A stretch of DNA of 47,023 nt, from contig JANWYO010000330.1 of NCBI GenBank assembly GCA_025055215.1, positions 1 to 47,023 of the forward strand, read 5' to 3'. Under the pieces are notes generated by a model that ran no database searches, had not been told where the DNA came from, and saw nothing but the letters and a program-made list of their open reading frames with translations. Below, piece after piece: positions 26,064-35,218 of this stretch; within the stretch, counting starts at the first letter, position 1, and each line of letters starts with the position of its first letter. Origin of the DNA: Gemmataceae bacterium. Lineage in GTDB: Bacteria; Planctomycetota; Planctomycetia; Gemmatales; Gemmataceae. A program made the translations under genes and the position numbers.

Positions 26064-26290
26064 GTTGCCACTGGCCCCCCACCGTGGATCTGACGAGTTA
26101 TTGGTGCCGCCTTCGCCGCGGGCACAGGCGATGGGGCCCGAGCCCGCGCCGGCGGCCATGCCGCCGGCTTGGACGCCGCAGACCAGCGGCTCGCTTGTCC
26201 CATGCCCGTGGTCGCGCAGCCAACGCTGGCGATAGCACGGGAAGCTGTGTAAAGTACCATTTCTTGATGACGGCACAAAGGGGGATTCCC

Positions 26291-27307
26291 ATGACGCAAG
26301 CCCTGCTGATTTCCGGACACGGCAGCCGCGATCCCGAAGGGGTGGCCGAGTTCCTTGATATGGCCCGACATTTTCGCGCCTACCGGCCGGACTTGCCGCC
26401 GGTGGAGATTTCCTTTCTGGAGTTCGCCCGCCCGACGATCCAGGAAGGTATCGACCGCCTGGTCGCCCGGGGCGCGAGCAGCATTGTGGTCTTGCCTGGG
26501 GTGCTGATGGCGGCGGGCCATGCCAAGAACGACATGGCCAGCGAGGTTCGCCACGCGCGTCTGCGGTATCCGCACGTGCCCATTCACATGGGCCGCAGCC
26601 TTGATCTCGACCATCGTCTTCTCCAACTGTGCCGCTTGCGCTACGAGGAAGCGCTGGCCGACCGCCCCCCGATCCCGGCGTCGGAAACCCTGCTGTTGGT
26701 TGTCGGCCGCGGCAGCAGCGACCCCGATGCCAACTCCAACATCGCCAAAGTCGCCGCCTTCCTCCGCGAAGGCTACCCCACTGGTTGGGCCGCCTGGGCT
26801 TATAGCGGGGTCGCCCGTCCCCTGGTCGAGGAGGCCTTGCCGGTCTGTGCCCGGGCCGGCTTCCGCCGCATCGTCGTCCAGCCTTACTTCCTCTTCACCG
26901 GCATCCTCCTGAAACGGATCTACGCCCAGGTCGAGGAACTCCGGCAGGCTCGTCGCGACCTCGACGTGGTCGCCACCCCCCACTTGCAAAGCCATCCGCT
27001 GCTGTTGGAAACATTTCTCGATCGTGCCCGGGAGGCGGTTGAAGGGACCGGCCATATGAACTGTTCATTGTGCCAATATCGTGTCCCGATCGTGGGCCAC
27101 GAACACCGCGTCGGTGAGCCACAACAACCGCATCACCATCACGTCCAGGGCTTGTACGCGCACGTCCATCACCTGGACGACGCACCACACGCCCATCGCC
27201 CGCACCATCACCACCACGCCCATGCCAGCCGCTCGACCCTGGCGGACATCGAATGGACCGACCCCCATCCCTGGAGCGAGGCGCTCCGCGAACAGTTGCA
27301 GTTCTGA
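26291..27307 (+). CDS. cbiX: Sirohydrochlorin chelatase, long CbiX type, with MxCxxC motif and His-rich tail
   Basis: The protein has 338 residues. CbiX inserts Co2+ (or Fe2+ in SirB) into sirohydrochlorin on the way to cobalamin or siroheme. Two CbiX repeats are fused: the first has catalytic His10 in LLISGHGSRD and His77 in LMAAGHAKND; the second begins VVGRGSSDPDAN, with Arg in place of the first His. The C-terminal extension has MNCSLC at 256-261, the MxCxxC [4Fe-4S] motif described for CbiX(L). Next is a strongly histidine-rich stretch (about 270-312, including HHHH and HHHHH) that could store or deliver metal. GGGGGA lies six bases before the ATG. No cobalamin riboswitch could be recognised upstream, and no other cbi genes are adjacent. 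Confident family, metal not certain. Confidence 0.92.
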   Translation: MTQALLISGHGSRDPEGVAEFLDMARHFRAYRPDLPPVEISFLEFARPTIQEGIDRLVARGASSIVVLPGVLMAAGHAKNDMASEVRHARLRYPHVPIHMGRSLDLDHRLLQLCRLRYEEALADRPPIPASETLLLVVGRGSSDPDANSNIAKVAAFLREGYPTGWAAWAYSGVARPLVEEALPVCARAGFRRIVVQPYFLFTGILLKRIYAQVEELRQARRDLDVVATPHLQSHPLLLETFLDRAREAVEGTGHMNCSLCQYRVPIVGHEHRVGEPQQPHHHHVQGLYAHVHHLDDAPHAHRPHHHHHAHASRSTLADIEWTDPHPWSEALREQLQF

Positions 27308-29911: not shown

Positions 29912-32359
29912 CTAACCGCCGGTCATGGCGACGGCGAAATCACGCCCTTCCCAACGATCAACCTCAGGCCAGTAAAAAGTAAAGCGCACGGGGGCCCTCT
30001 GGCTTACTGACACCGGAATGTCCACGTAGTACACCCGCAGGCCGGAATCTAGCGAGACTGTTTGGTGGACGGTGGCCCAGTCGTCGGCGGACCAGGTGAG
30101 GCGGAAGGGGGCCCGGGCCAGGATGCGCAAGACGTGGCCCGGCCGTACCTCGCGCACTTGTCGATGAAACTTCCAGATTTCCAGGGGTGGCTTGTCGGGG
30201 CGGCGGCCGAGGTAGCGGTCCGCGACGATCGCGAGACGGTCGAAGACGTACCCCTCAGCGTAAGAGCGGACCAGTTTGACGTATTCGGCATGGGCCCACA
30301 GCAGCGGGATGGCGCTGCCGGTCGGCCGGCCGAAATAAAGGAACGCTTCGGGGCGGTCGGGCTGGGACCAGACCTGTTCGGGAAGGAGGGCGGAGGCGGT
30401 GGCGAAGCGTTCCATCGTCTGGATATACGGGAGGACGGCGCGGCCGGCGGCCAGCTCGTAGTGGCCGCGCTCCCCGGTAAGCAGCGGCCAAAGGTGGCCG
30501 TGGCCCGAGCCATTGAAGGGCGAGCCGTCGAGGTGCTCGCCGTAGCCGTCATGGTTGTAGCGATGCCAGCCGGGGCCGTAGGGCGTGTCCTTTTTCAGCA
30601 CGGCATCAACGACGCGGAGGGAATCTTCCACGAGCGGGTCGCCGGCCTTGCGAATGCCATAGCGGACAAGTTCGAGGAACCCCGCATCAACGATTTCCTT
30701 GGCGGGAAAGTTGGCGGGCATCCCCGGCGGGCGATTGCGAATCGTAACGACGCCATGGTTGGGGTCTTCGTCCGGCTGGGGATCGTCCACGTCCACGGGA
30801 TGAATGCGGATGTAGTGGCGGGGAATTTCGCGGACCAGCGTCCCCTGGGTGGTGACGGTCCAGCTTTCGATCCGGCTTTCGAGAAAATCGGCATAATCTT
30901 CGATGAAGCGCGCCGTGTCGGGCCGGCCGACCCGGCGAGCCAAATCTGCGGCACAAATCAGGCCGGCGATCTGGGCCGCGAGTGTCGAGGGGGAGTAACC
31001 GCTGTTTTCCTCCCAGCGTTCCTGGGGGGTGGCGGGGCCCTGCTGGATCAGGTATCCGGCGGCGCGCTGGACCATGGGCCAGGGGTTGAAATCGCCGAGG
31101 GCGTCGGCCTGGAGAAGTCGCCAGGCGAGCATGACGGGGAAGGCGGTTTCGTCGAGCTGGATGCCGCGCCAGTAGGCCTCGCCGTTGATCCAGAAGTTCT
31201 GGTAGAAGCCACCGTCGTCGCGTTGCGTGCAGGCGAGGTAGATCAGCGCCCGGCGGGGAGTGGCGGTGTTGCCGGCCGCCAATAGTCCTGTGGCGCTCTG
31301 ACACATGTCGCGTGTCCAGACGAGGTGATAGCCTCCGAGGTCATCATCGCCTTTGATTTCGCCCCACGGAATACTGAGCGAGGCGATCATGGCGCCTTCG
31401 AAATGCTTGTCTTCGTGGGCGAGCAAAATGCTGACACTTTTGCGGAAGAGCCGTCCCTGGTCGCCGGTCAACGCCCCGGTGGCGGGCGGAGAGATGCCCA
31501 GTTCCTGTTGGCGACGGGTGAGGAAGTCGTCGCAGCGGTTGGCGGCCCGCGTCCATTGTTCGATGTAGCGCTCCCGATGTTGACGGAAGGGGACAAACAA
31601 CGATTGGGCCAACTGCACGAGGGCCGCGTGCAGAGATTCGCCGAAGGCCAAGGCCAAGACAAACTCATTCCCCCGACGCAGATCGAGTTCGGCGGTCAGG
31701 GCGATATTGCCATTCAGGGCGTGGTCATAGTCGTGGTCCATGTCGAAGTTATGGGCCAGGTCTTGCCAACCGTCATTGACGCCCACGTAACCGCAGGAAC
31801 AGCGTCGGAAGGGAATGGAGGCGGCCATGATCAGCCAGGTGCCATCCTTGTGGGCGGCCAGGATGTCGCCCCAGTCAGTGCGGAGGACGTGGCCATTGTT
31901 GCCCCAACCGCTGCCGCCCAGGTGGGGAGCCAACAGACCGAAAAGCCGCAGCCGCTCGCGCCATTCCGGCTCCACCTCGAAACGGGTGTGGACCAGCAGG
32001 CAGGGCCGATGCGGGTCGGTAATGGTCTCCTTGATAAGGCGATATCGGCCCTGGGGGTCGGAGCTGATGACCCGGAAGCCGAGCGTGTGCGGCGCGAGGT
32101 AGTCTTGTTCGTGGCGCAGGTGGCGGCGGCTGTCTTGGAAGAAGGTGCGACCATCGCTGACCAAATACTGGAAATCGCGGACTTGCGGCCGATCGATGGT
32201 GGGGTAATAGATCTCGTTGATGACGCCCCGGGAAATGGTGAACCAGACACGACTGAGGGCGGAATACGCCGTGCCTACGCCGTCTTTGTCGCTGCGAGTC
32301 CAGCGAGGTTCAATCCCGGGTCCGCCGGGGGCCGGTTTGTCACACAAGAGGACCGCCAT
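29912..32359 (-). CDS. Glycoside hydrolase family 15 glucoamylase-like protein
   Basis: The protein has 815 residues from the ATG at 32357-32359. An N-terminal beta-sandwich domain (about 20-280; GVGTAYSALSRVWFTISRGVINEIYYPTID) precedes the (alpha/alpha)6 barrel. The barrel has FEGAMIASLSIPWGE, GGYHLVWTRDMCQSATGLLAAG (substrate-binding Trp/Arg/Asp), and QRWEENSGYSPSTLAAQ, whose Glu pair includes the probable general acid. The later segment with DGSPFNGSGHGHLWPLLTGERGHYELA completes the active site. Family 15 enzymes release glucose from the non-reducing end of starch or glycogen; this bacterial-type two-domain form has no clear signal peptide, so an intracellular role is likely. The frame extends back to 32443, with no good ribosome site at either ATG. 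With this start it overlaps the upstream FixH-like gene by 20 bp. Confidence 0.9.
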   Translation of the reverse strand: MAVLLCDKPAPGGPGIEPRWTRSDKDGVGTAYSALSRVWFTISRGVINEIYYPTIDRPQVRDFQYLVSDGRTFFQDSRRHLRHEQDYLAPHTLGFRVISSDPQGRYRLIKETITDPHRPCLLVHTRFEVEPEWRERLRLFGLLAPHLGGSGWGNNGHVLRTDWGDILAAHKDGTWLIMAASIPFRRCSCGYVGVNDGWQDLAHNFDMDHDYDHALNGNIALTAELDLRRGNEFVLALAFGESLHAALVQLAQSLFVPFRQHRERYIEQWTRAANRCDDFLTRRQQELGISPPATGALTGDQGRLFRKSVSILLAHEDKHFEGAMIASLSIPWGEIKGDDDLGGYHLVWTRDMCQSATGLLAAGNTATPRRALIYLACTQRDDGGFYQNFWINGEAYWRGIQLDETAFPVMLAWRLLQADALGDFNPWPMVQRAAGYLIQQGPATPQERWEENSGYSPSTLAAQIAGLICAADLARRVGRPDTARFIEDYADFLESRIESWTVTTQGTLVREIPRHYIRIHPVDVDDPQPDEDPNHGVVTIRNRPPGMPANFPAKEIVDAGFLELVRYGIRKAGDPLVEDSLRVVDAVLKKDTPYGPGWHRYNHDGYGEHLDGSPFNGSGHGHLWPLLTGERGHYELAAGRAVLPYIQTMERFATASALLPEQVWSQPDRPEAFLYFGRPTGSAIPLLWAHAEYVKLVRSYAEGYVFDRLAIVADRYLGRRPDKPPLEIWKFHRQVREVRPGHVLRILARAPFRLTWSADDWATVHQTVSLDSGLRVYYVDIPVSVSQRAPVRFTFYWPEVDRWEGRDFAVAMTGG

Positions 32360-32912
32360 CGTTTGTCCGGAAAGGGGAACGGGGACGCGGTGTCGTTCCC
32401 GGCGAGCGATCCCGACCTCGAACGAGCCACTGCTGCCAGGCATAAAGCCCGATCGGCAGCACCGGCCAAGTCAGCCAAAGCGACAGGTCGGCCCAGCGCG
32501 GCGGGGCCTCGGCCACCTCGACGTTGCAACTGATCCGGGCCGGTCCTCTCGGCCCCTCCACGGCCACGTCGATTTGCCAGGCGCCGGCCGTGCCAGCGTC
32601 CAGGGTCGCTGCTCGCAGCAGTTTATTGCTCGCCGCTTCCGTGGTCGCCAATTTTTCCTGCGTCATTGACAGCTGCCGCTCCGCTGTCAAACGGATGGTC
32701 ACGGTTCCATCGAGGATCGGTCGCCCCGTGTGGCGGTCCTGAAGCAGCACGCTGACATCGATCGGCCCTGCCCGCAGCGGGGTCGGCGTCGTAAACACGG
32801 TCAACCGATAAGGGCCAGCATCGCCGGACCACTGCACCATGCCTCCGTCGGCATACGCTGCGGCCGGCCGCAGCAGCAACACCATCCCGACCGCCAGGCT
32901 GGCCCGCGCCAT
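32340..32912 (-). CDS. FixH/YtkA-like membrane-anchored periplasmic protein
   Basis: The protein has 190 residues from the ATG at 32910-32912, which overlaps the stop of the upstream CtaG-polyferredoxin gene in TGATG; longer frames are rejected for that reason. A signal peptide (1-21, ending AAAYA) is followed by an immunoglobulin-like beta domain. It contains YRLTVFTTPTPLRAGPIDVSVLLQ and PILDGTVTIRLTAE, the layout of FixH and YtkA domains. A C-terminal membrane segment (LSLWLTWPVLPIGLYAW, 143-159) and a basic tail complete it. FixH-like proteins assist cbb3 oxidase biogenesis, and YtkA-like domains occur with copper proteins. Translational coupling to a CtaG/polyferredoxin fusion makes a role in oxidase or copper-centre assembly likely, but this is inference. 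Confidence 0.65.
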   Translation of the reverse strand: MARASLAVGMVLLLRPAAAYADGGMVQWSGDAGPYRLTVFTTPTPLRAGPIDVSVLLQDRHTGRPILDGTVTIRLTAERQLSMTQEKLATTEAASNKLLRAATLDAGTAGAWQIDVAVEGPRGPARISCNVEVAEAPPRWADLSLWLTWPVLPIGLYAWQQWLVRGRDRSPGTTPRPRSPFRTNDGGPLV

Positions 32913-35218
32913 CACATCATCCCCCGCATCTCCATCGGCTGAAAGACGATCCACAGACCCACGGCGAACAATAGCAAGACGAGGCCGGCCCATGGGAGAA
33001 ACGCGTGCACGGCCCGACGCCAGACCGGGTGCAGTTCCAAGGAGATACGATACGCCAGGTACAACGAACCGAGTAGCCCCGCTTGAAGACATAAGATTTC
33101 CGCCTGGAGCAGCCACTCGGCCACCGGCGAATTACACCGGCACACCCAGCGAAGCTCAGCCGTGCTCTCAAACCCCAGGGCTTGGGCGACCCGTAAGGTC
33201 ACCGGAAAAATCGCTTCCCAGCTAGTGACCAAATGAAACCCGTAATGAGCCATCCACATACCAAAGCCGAGGGGCACGAAAGCGAGAGCGTAGCGCTTGA
33301 CCAGGCCCCAGGGCGACAAGAGCGATCCACTCCCAAGTCGGCTCAGGAGTGCCACGCTGCCGACCAGCGCGACCGGCACCAGGCCCAGGGCGAAGATGCA
33401 GTTGAGGGTGACGACGGCCCAGAACGGCCAGCCGAGCCGCTCCGCCAGCCGGTCTTGACAGGCCAGCACCGGGGCGGTCATGCCAGCGGCATTGACGAAG
33501 GCGACAAAAACAAGGAGCAGGACCAACAAGGCCACGTCGGCACGCCGGCCCAATCGACCGACTCCCGAACGCTGCGGGTCGGTGAGCAGCTCCTGGCCCG
33601 GGATCCGGGCCAGGATGCCGACGTTGTCGTGCGGACAGGCGTGAATGCAATCCAGACAGAATATGCAGTCCCAGTTGCCGACCTTCCGCGGGATGAACAG
33701 GTGAAGCTCGCACCCCGGGACGGGACCACGGCCACGAATGCAATCCTTCGTGTCACACCGCTGACACACCTCGGCGGAGCGCGCTCGGACCTCCCAGGGG
33801 GAGACGAGCGATTGCACGAAGTTGAATTGACCGATGGGACAGAGGTATTTGCAGAAAGCGGCGCCGCGAAACCAGCTATCGACGACGAAAGCGGCGAGAA
33901 AATACGCCGCCGCCAGCGAAGCGGTGGCCCACGGGTCGGCCCAGAGGGCGAACGTTTCGTACGCCCAGAAAAAGACAACGAGAAAGGCAACGGCTAGCCA
34001 CTTCGAGCGGAGCCAGCTTGGCCAGGAACGCCGCGCCGGCTGCCAGCGCCGGGCCCAGGTTCGCGGCAGGAGAAAGGGACACGCCAAGCAAAAGACGTTG
34101 CCCAGGGCCAACAACCCGAGCACGACCAAGCCGCGCCAATGAATCCAAGGGACGATCCCGGCCAGATTCATTCCCTCGACGGGAGGTCCTAGCCAACCGT
34201 CGAGGATGATCGCCCCGGCAAGGACGAGCATCAGCCCTTGGAGCAGCGTTCGGGCATGCCGCCAGCGCAGGAAGCGACCCAGCAGCGGCAGGCGGAGGAG
34301 GTCGGGGGTCGCCGGATTCGTGGGGCCCGCGAGGGGCAGGCCGATGCGTCCACCAACTAGCCGCGGCACCGCCGCGGGACGGCGAGTTGACGCCGGTGCC
34401 GACCCAAACAACAGGCCGCAGCCGATCCACCCCAGCGGCAGCAGAAAGGCCATCGACCCCGGGACCCACATGATGACACCGGCAATCGCCTGATCTTCCA
34501 GCGCCGAGAGGTCCCACAACCGTGGCACCCTTTCGTAATGCGGGTAAATGACGCTGTCGGAGAACGCCAACAGAGCGGAAAGGACCGTGTTCTGCACGTC
34601 GGCGAAGAGGAGGTACGGCAAGATCAACCACCGCGGGCCTGGGGACTGGGCCGGATAAGGGAGGACCACCGGCCACCAGAAAACCAGCGCCGACCCGAAA
34701 AAGCACAGGTGTTCGACATAGTGTAACCCCGGTGACACCAGGGCGGCGTCGAACAGCGCGGGCACATGCCAGAGCCAGGTCAAGCCGACAAAGAGCAACC
34801 AGGCAACGCGCAAATCGCTCAAGGCGGCCCCGAGGCTCCGCGCCAAGCCATCGCGCAGGAATGGGCCGATCGCGTGTCGGCGGACCGATGCCGGCAGGCC
34901 ACGCAGCAGCGGCCACAGTGGGGCCCCCAGCCAGATGAGGGGCGGGGCGACCATCATCAGCAGGAGGTGCTGCACCATGTGCACCTGCAGCAGGAGGGCC
35001 GACAGAGGTTCGACGGGCGACGCCAGGGCCAGGAGGACAACGACCAAGCCGCCGACAAACGCCGCAGCTTGGCACCCGCCCCAGCGCGCGGGCGCCCGCC
35101 GCCGCAACACGGACCAGCCTCGCAGGTACAGCCCCGCCGCAAGAGCTAGTCCCAGGCAGAGCCACGGGTCCCACACCCAGGAGCGAAGCAGGGCCGTTTC
35201 GATGCGATCGCCGTCCAT
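32912..35218 (-). CDS. Fusion of CtaG-type cytochrome oxidase assembly domain and polyferredoxin membrane domain
   Basis: The protein has 768 residues from the ATG at 35216-35218. Residues about 10-270 are a CtaG_Bd/caa3-CtaG membrane domain with the conserved histidines of HMVQH (80, 84), WHVP (151) and HYVEH (166, 170). Residues about 325-768 form a second membrane domain of the NapH/CcoG/NosR type. It has FCLAC (377-380), CKYLCPIG (456-460), CQRC..C (485, 488, 493) with Cys503, and the classical [4Fe-4S] run CIFCLDCIHACP (518-528). CtaG assists copper-A insertion in caa3 oxidases; polyferredoxins pass electrons across or along the membrane. One chain therefore could couple electron supply to metal-centre assembly. 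Longer N-terminal frame to 35509 rejected: no family features. Next gene overlaps by one base. Confidence 0.88.
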   Translation of the reverse strand: MDGDRIETALLRSWVWDPWLCLGLALAAGLYLRGWSVLRRRAPARWGGCQAAAFVGGLVVVLLALASPVEPLSALLLQVHMVQHLLLMMVAPPLIWLGAPLWPLLRGLPASVRRHAIGPFLRDGLARSLGAALSDLRVAWLLFVGLTWLWHVPALFDAALVSPGLHYVEHLCFFGSALVFWWPVVLPYPAQSPGPRWLILPYLLFADVQNTVLSALLAFSDSVIYPHYERVPRLWDLSALEDQAIAGVIMWVPGSMAFLLPLGWIGCGLLFGSAPASTRRPAAVPRLVGGRIGLPLAGPTNPATPDLLRLPLLGRFLRWRHARTLLQGLMLVLAGAIILDGWLGPPVEGMNLAGIVPWIHWRGLVVLGLLALGNVFCLACPFLLPRTWARRWQPARRSWPSWLRSKWLAVAFLVVFFWAYETFALWADPWATASLAAAYFLAAFVVDSWFRGAAFCKYLCPIGQFNFVQSLVSPWEVRARSAEVCQRCDTKDCIRGRGPVPGCELHLFIPRKVGNWDCIFCLDCIHACPHDNVGILARIPGQELLTDPQRSGVGRLGRRADVALLVLLLVFVAFVNAAGMTAPVLACQDRLAERLGWPFWAVVTLNCIFALGLVPVALVGSVALLSRLGSGSLLSPWGLVKRYALAFVPLGFGMWMAHYGFHLVTSWEAIFPVTLRVAQALGFESTAELRWVCRCNSPVAEWLLQAEILCLQAGLLGSLYLAYRISLELHPVWRRAVHAFLPWAGLVLLLFAVGLWIVFQPMEMRGMM

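Follow-up and report, generated by a model that had tools for sequence, protein, structure and literature searches.

Why should a planctomycete encode, in one open reading frame, an oxidase copper-assembly domain and an iron–sulfur polyferredoxin? The gene lies in the window, by which we mean the whole stretch of DNA that was analysed, 47,023 nucleotides of contig JANWYO010000330.1 from a Gemmataceae bacterium, and it bears on the question of how Cu(II) is reduced before it is inserted into A-type oxidases. CtaG is required for an active caa3 oxidase in Bacillus, where it has been proposed to insert CuB (or CuA) (PMC9145763, PMC13344008), and YtkA, renamed CtaK, has been implicated in the CuA centre and supports the caa3 oxidase of the same genus (PMC13344008). 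Whether the reduction of Cu(II) is catalysed by an enzyme was given as unknown in that 2026 Bacillus study, and CcoG is absent there (PMC13344008). CcoG itself carries two [4Fe-4S] clusters and reduces Cu(II) specifically; among its listed homologues is YccM, in which the Ig domain is missing (PMC7558416).

The reading frame has no internal stop over its 768 residues, and its features, together with those of the gene that follows it, are collected in the table. Caa3_CtaG (PF09678) matched the N-terminal domain with an E-value of 1.3e-55 (1.0e-56 in the genome-wide search) and a score of 189 bits (cut-off 27.7), covering positions 2-230 of the 237 in the profile; the Bacillus CtaG equivalog TIGR02737 scored 67.3 bits, which is below its cut-off of 279.4. 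With this match, and with intact counterparts in relatives, the one-chain fusion of CtaG and polyferredoxin that the preliminary description had read from the sequence is real. The putative copper ligands of the CtaG domain (H80, H84, H151, H166, H170 and D242) are kept in 77-78 of 78 aligned fusions. By its position, rather than by an alignment, D242 is presumably the counterpart of Bacillus D249, which has been proposed as a copper ligand.

Table. Features of the fusion gene and its partner; positions are those of the window.
Feature	Position	Strand	Description
CtaG-polyferredoxin fusion	32912..35218	-	768 aa; about 16 predicted membrane helices
CtaG domain, aa 30-265	34424..35131	-	7 helices; PF09678 match
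Polyferredoxin core, about aa 322-555	33552..34254	-	Helices with C377xxC380P and C456xxxC460P, then two cluster motifs
C-terminal membrane bundle of the fusion, about aa 560-768	32912..33541	-	Invariant H658 and H662; QPMxMRG tail
YtkA-like partner, 190 aa	32340..32912	-	Signal peptide, Ig-like beta sandwich aa 24-135, C-terminal membrane helix aa 139-168

The cysteines of the second half are just as constant: C377, C380, C456, C460, C485, C488, C493, C503, C518, C521 and C528 are invariant in the 78 aligned fusions, and C524 is present in 77. Two CP-cysteine pairs, CX2CP at 377/380 and CX3CP at 456/460, both align with YccM, and the first of these is the extra FCLAC pair picked out earlier. 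The two full [4Fe-4S] motifs that had been announced fared less evenly, as the second (C518/521/524/528) is a canonical C-X2-C-X2-C-X3-CP, while the first (C485/488/493/503) reads C-X2-C-X4-C-X9-C and is non-canonical, so that the chain lacks the pair of CX2CX2CX3CP motifs by which CcoG/FixG proteins are recognised. The CcoG model TIGR02745 had no match in the fusion at E-values up to 0.1. With the CcoG model unmatched and one cluster motif non-canonical, the polyferredoxin half was not filed as CcoG, and the earlier label of a NapH/CcoG-type domain stands only as a resemblance to YccM, the CcoG homologue: E. coli YccM aligned with residues 341-532 at an hhalign probability of 97.5 and an E-value of 5.5e-12, and the NapH/MauN model TIGR02163 gave 37.1 bits over residues 434-533, far under its curated cut-off of 213.

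The AlphaFold2 model of the fusion (mean pLDDT 92, pTM 0.76) predicts seven helices in the CtaG domain and nine in the polyferredoxin and C-terminal parts, and the topology was derived from these helices and from family-averaged positive-inside loop charges. On the predicted periplasmic face are the six CtaG ligands, the two invariant histidines of the C-terminal bundle and its QPMxMRG tail; both cluster motifs and the CP-cysteine pairs fall on the predicted cytoplasmic face. When the whole 768-residue model, rather than its single domains, was searched against the PDB with Foldseek and VIA-align, nothing meaningful was retrieved.

This arrangement is where an alternative has to be weighed, in which a NapH-like, quinol-linked electron device, formed by the polyferredoxin half, reduces a target other than copper while the oxidase is assembled, such as disulfides between CuA ligands or the site of heme a3, and CtaG handles the copper alone. 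The NapH models are the sole NCBIfam similarity found for this half, NapH aligns with it at an hhalign probability of 95.2% (E 2.6e-8), and the clusters on the predicted cytoplasmic face would be far from the CtaG ligands; the alignment with YccM/CcoG is nevertheless the stronger, and copper is the simplest substrate for a domain fused to a putative copper-insertion domain. We regard the NapH-like device as unlikely. That the polyferredoxin half would work like CcoG is the leading interpretation of its sequence.

The fusion is a conserved, widespread family and not a peculiarity of the window's genome, and its carriers include cultivated strains, for example Lacipirellula limnantheis and Blastopirellula marina. 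When 59 related genomes were searched, it turned up at full length in nine other genera, with reading frames 41-56% identical to the window protein, and a scan of genome contigs with an alignment of the window protein and its near relatives retrieved 249 relatives. The best 80 of these, from Planctomycetota, Verrucomicrobiota and Acidobacteriota, all read through both halves in one open frame, three of them running off the contig end on the 5' side. A sequencing error, a frameshift or a chance reading frame was rejected on these 80 of 80 retrieved loci, and the conservation across several genera that had been looked for was found, here extending to three phyla. The tree of the fusions, computed with FastTree only, was nearly structured by phylum: the Planctomycetota all fell to one side of a branch, and each of the other two phyla showed three changes. 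CtaG was present in only 14 of 294 sampled genomes of the phylum, in three of them in frames of more than 780 residues.

Several loci met in these searches are recorded here in their own right. One fusion with its oxidase operon (L121) is titled as a Klebsiella pneumoniae MAG and groups with Acidobacteriota, and it probably comes from a mislabelled bin. One genome with an intact fusion and two COX1 genes of the lineage associated with it contains, in addition, a decayed second copy interrupted by several stops in frame (L020; G023:C1:113861-115666). At L037:9050-12660 (G023:C7) there are two adjoining polyferredoxin genes, one of them with YHS domains, near a gene for a protein with a Tat signal and one for a cytochrome c-like protein. 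CtaG domains also occur in 470-residue frames of another planctomycete family (G202:C25:17590-18321 and G230:C27:148587-149318), possibly as a different fusion.

The stop codon of the fusion overlaps the start of the following gene in the sequence TGATG, as the preliminary description had noted, and this coupling is widely kept: among the best 80 of the 249 relatives the partner profile had a match downstream of the fusion in 72 loci, within 60 nt in 69 and overlapping it in 35. The partner had been called FixH/YtkA-like, and it is the YtkA side of that name that is favoured, with 17 of 60 partner homologues matching the YtkA-like family PF13115 (best 2e-7) and four of 60 matching FixH PF05751 (best 4e-4), while the window protein itself matched neither. 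By sequence, the partner thus appears YtkA/CtaK-like rather than FixH. In Foldseek its model (pLDDT 90.5) found the copper protein CrdA of H. pylori as the best match (E 8e-6, TM 0.77 by target length), and VIA-align superimposed the two over 102 residues (Z 14.1, rmsd 2.0), with the metal proteins P19, FetP and FtrA next at Z 11-13. Past the signal peptide, however, no His, Met or Cys column was common to even 30% of the family members and, because of this, a role as a copper carrier or copper-binding protein is not indicated. The partner may serve instead in anchoring or docking. One locus (L070, downstream of 12262) is missing the YtkA-like gene, and there the fusion is followed by what reads as a UbiA/CtaB-like gene, another oxidase biogenesis factor.

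The company that the pair keeps points to its target. In relatives the operon runs in the order coxB, coxA, coxC, coxIV-like, cytochrome c, Rieske and cytochrome b (with a fused cytochrome c), after which the fusion and its partner close it, and Pfam identified the oxidase from COX2 with a fused cytochrome c, the hallmark of caa3, with COX1, COX3 and a subunit IV-like protein. Counted over the 57 loci with at least 6.5 kb of upstream sequence, from the best 80 of 249 relatives, coxA was upstream of the fusion in 50, coxA and coxB together in 47 (three further loci had coxA without a coxB match in range), and all seven operon genes in 44.

As cytochrome b was immediately upstream of the fusion in 62 of 75 loci, the polyferredoxin could also be thought to serve the cytochrome bc part of the operon (Rieske, cytochrome b and cytochrome c) and not the oxidase. 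This is very unlikely, given that the fusion follows directly after coxIV at two loci (L108 and L113) with no bc genes detected in the available flanks, that the bc genes at a third (L099) are downstream of it, and that three genomes (G050, G054 and G056) have a cytochrome b gene beside CtaG and no polyferredoxin match; the domain to which the polyferredoxin is fused, CtaG, is moreover an oxidase factor.

In the window's own genome the fusion pair is away from the oxidase operon, flanked by genes for a GH15-type glycosidase and a phosphoribosyltransferase-like protein. The operon is on another contig (C286) that ends inside cytochrome b, and a further contig (C102) begins with a cytochrome c piece similar to the cytochrome b tail. 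The glycosidase gene (Glucodextran_N and Glyco_hydro_15; 29912-32443, minus strand) is directly downstream of the YtkA-like gene; its overlap with the end of that gene is 104 nt when counted from its first ATG and about 20 nt from a later one. Elsewhere in the window, a gene that reads as a CbiX-like chelatase (26084-27307, plus strand) encodes a very His-rich stretch near its C-terminus. The genome has a single CtaG and one SCO-family match, and a search of it for the CcoG family gave no match. The preliminary description had set the unit in the frame of cbb3 assembly, and this was not supported, the conserved operon being that of an A-type caa3 oxidase and the genome being without a CcoG-family match. 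Assembly of cbb3 as the main target was rejected on the identity of the operon, yet the same genome also has a second, CcoN-like COX1, by reading, together with a P-type ATPase on contig C118. It is very likely that the target of the fusion is the A-type caa3 oxidase and not cbb3.

Co-occurrence also ties the fusion to this oxidase. When the caa3-type COX1 lineage was defined as orthologues of at least 65% identity, it was present in 12 of the 59 related genomes, and the fusion was found in 11 of these 12 as against none of the 47 others (Fisher p 4e-11 over the 59 genomes, with no phylogenetic correction). Ten of the eleven are full fusions, and the remaining one (G017) is an N-terminal piece of 49 residues at the edge of a short contig that also has coxA; when it is left out, p is 1e-9. 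In the twelfth genome (G014), where the fusion was not found, the operon contig ends inside cytochrome b. The co-occurrence holds even though the pair and coxA are on different contigs in several genomes, and together with the conserved operons it bears out the tie to terminal-oxidase assembly proposed earlier, so that the link of the fusion and its partner to the oxidase is well supported.

Genomes with the next-nearest COX1 (49-57%) have a stand-alone CtaG (G050, G054, G056 and G058), and in the first three of these caa3 COX1, cytochrome b and CtaG are close together without the fused polyferredoxin. As these three do without it, the fusion module is not essential for CtaG everywhere. Scanning the neighbourhoods of the stand-alone CtaG in G050, G056 and G058 revealed no YtkA-like gene, from which it seems that the polyferredoxin and the YtkA-like partner have been gained or lost together.

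Some iron uptake systems pair P19-type proteins with polyferredoxin-type membrane proteins. The pair might by the same token be a metal (copper or iron) uptake or redox system of the FtrABCD kind that is beside oxidase genes incidentally, which the partner's structural matches to P19, FtrA and FetP would suit. This explanation is highly improbable, since no further broadly conserved gene behind the pair was found as a possible permease, the partner is without conserved metal ligands, and the link to one COX1 lineage is strict.

We therefore favour, with a probability of roughly 0.6, the reading of the fusion and its partner as a dedicated Cu(II)-reducing and copper-inserting maturation unit for the A-type caa3 oxidase, because copper-handling and reductase-like parts are joined in one chain. 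The His/Asp ring on the periplasmic side of the seven CtaG helices would handle the oxidase copper (CuB and/or CuA), and the polyferredoxin half, with two [4Fe-4S] clusters toward the cytoplasm and two CP-cysteine pairs, would provide the electrons for the reduction of Cu(II) to Cu(I). One molecule would then both reduce and insert copper, with the polyferredoxin handing over to CtaG. The partner, a membrane-anchored periplasmic Ig-like domain, would dock the unit to the oxidase or to a copper donor, in the role that CtaK has in Bacillus, or that CcoH and the CcoG Ig domain would fill jointly. Copper as the substrate, the direction of electron flow, the electron donor and the docking by the partner are steps that we infer, and copper reduction by the fusion would follow by analogy. 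Against the maturation unit it must be said that the clusters are predicted to be cytoplasmic and the CtaG ligands periplasmic, which would put reduction and insertion on opposite faces, that the first cluster motif is non-canonical and the CcoG model unmatched, and that lineages with a caa3 COX1 and a stand-alone CtaG lack the module.

The broader proposal, that the family as a whole is a one-chain cupric reductase and copper insertase supplying Cu(II) reduction for A-type (caa3) oxidases in three phyla, is more tentative, and we place it somewhat short of an even chance. If true, the fusion family would supply a Cu(II) reduction step that is without a known enzyme for these oxidases. The natural joining of CtaG to a CcoG-like polyferredoxin gives direct genomic evidence of a coupling between CtaG and an Fe–S electron-transfer step. 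In the literature covered, which excludes most subscription journals, work linking CtaG to polyferredoxin, NapH or 4Fe-4S was looked for and none described this fusion; other fusions of CtaG, and Fe–S fusions to copper chaperones, are already known. The published CtaG phylogeny took only proteins with 6-9 helices, so that fusions with 16 would fall outside it (PMC8239418).

Set beside these known systems, the CtaG half shares with Caa3_CtaG of B. subtilis the seven-helix domain, the conserved His/Asp ligands on the outer face and the link to the caa3 oxidase, but the Bacillus protein stands alone and is not fused to a polyferredoxin. CtiP of Corynebacterium, a CtaG-CopD protein, likewise joins CtaG to another membrane domain related to copper, which there is a CopD-type copper transporter and here an Fe–S polyferredoxin (PMC9145763, PMC13344008). 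The other half resembles CcoG/FixG/RdxA and YccM in being a membrane polyferredoxin that bears CP-cysteine pairs and two [4Fe-4S] motifs, and CcoG, too, is found in an oxidase assembly cluster with a FixH/CcoH protein; it differs in serving the cbb3 oxidase, in its canonical first motif, in carrying the Ig domain in the same chain and in having no CtaG domain. The partner appears akin to YtkA/CtaK of B. subtilis through the YtkA-like family and the association with caa3 oxidase assembly, whereas CtaK is a lipoprotein and the partner combines a signal peptide with a membrane helix at its C-terminus and is without conserved metal ligands. CopZ of Archaeoglobus (cited in PMC7558416) offers the precedent of a copper-handling domain fused to an Fe–S domain that reduces Cu(II), although it is a soluble cytosolic chaperone whose domains are unrelated to those of the fusion.
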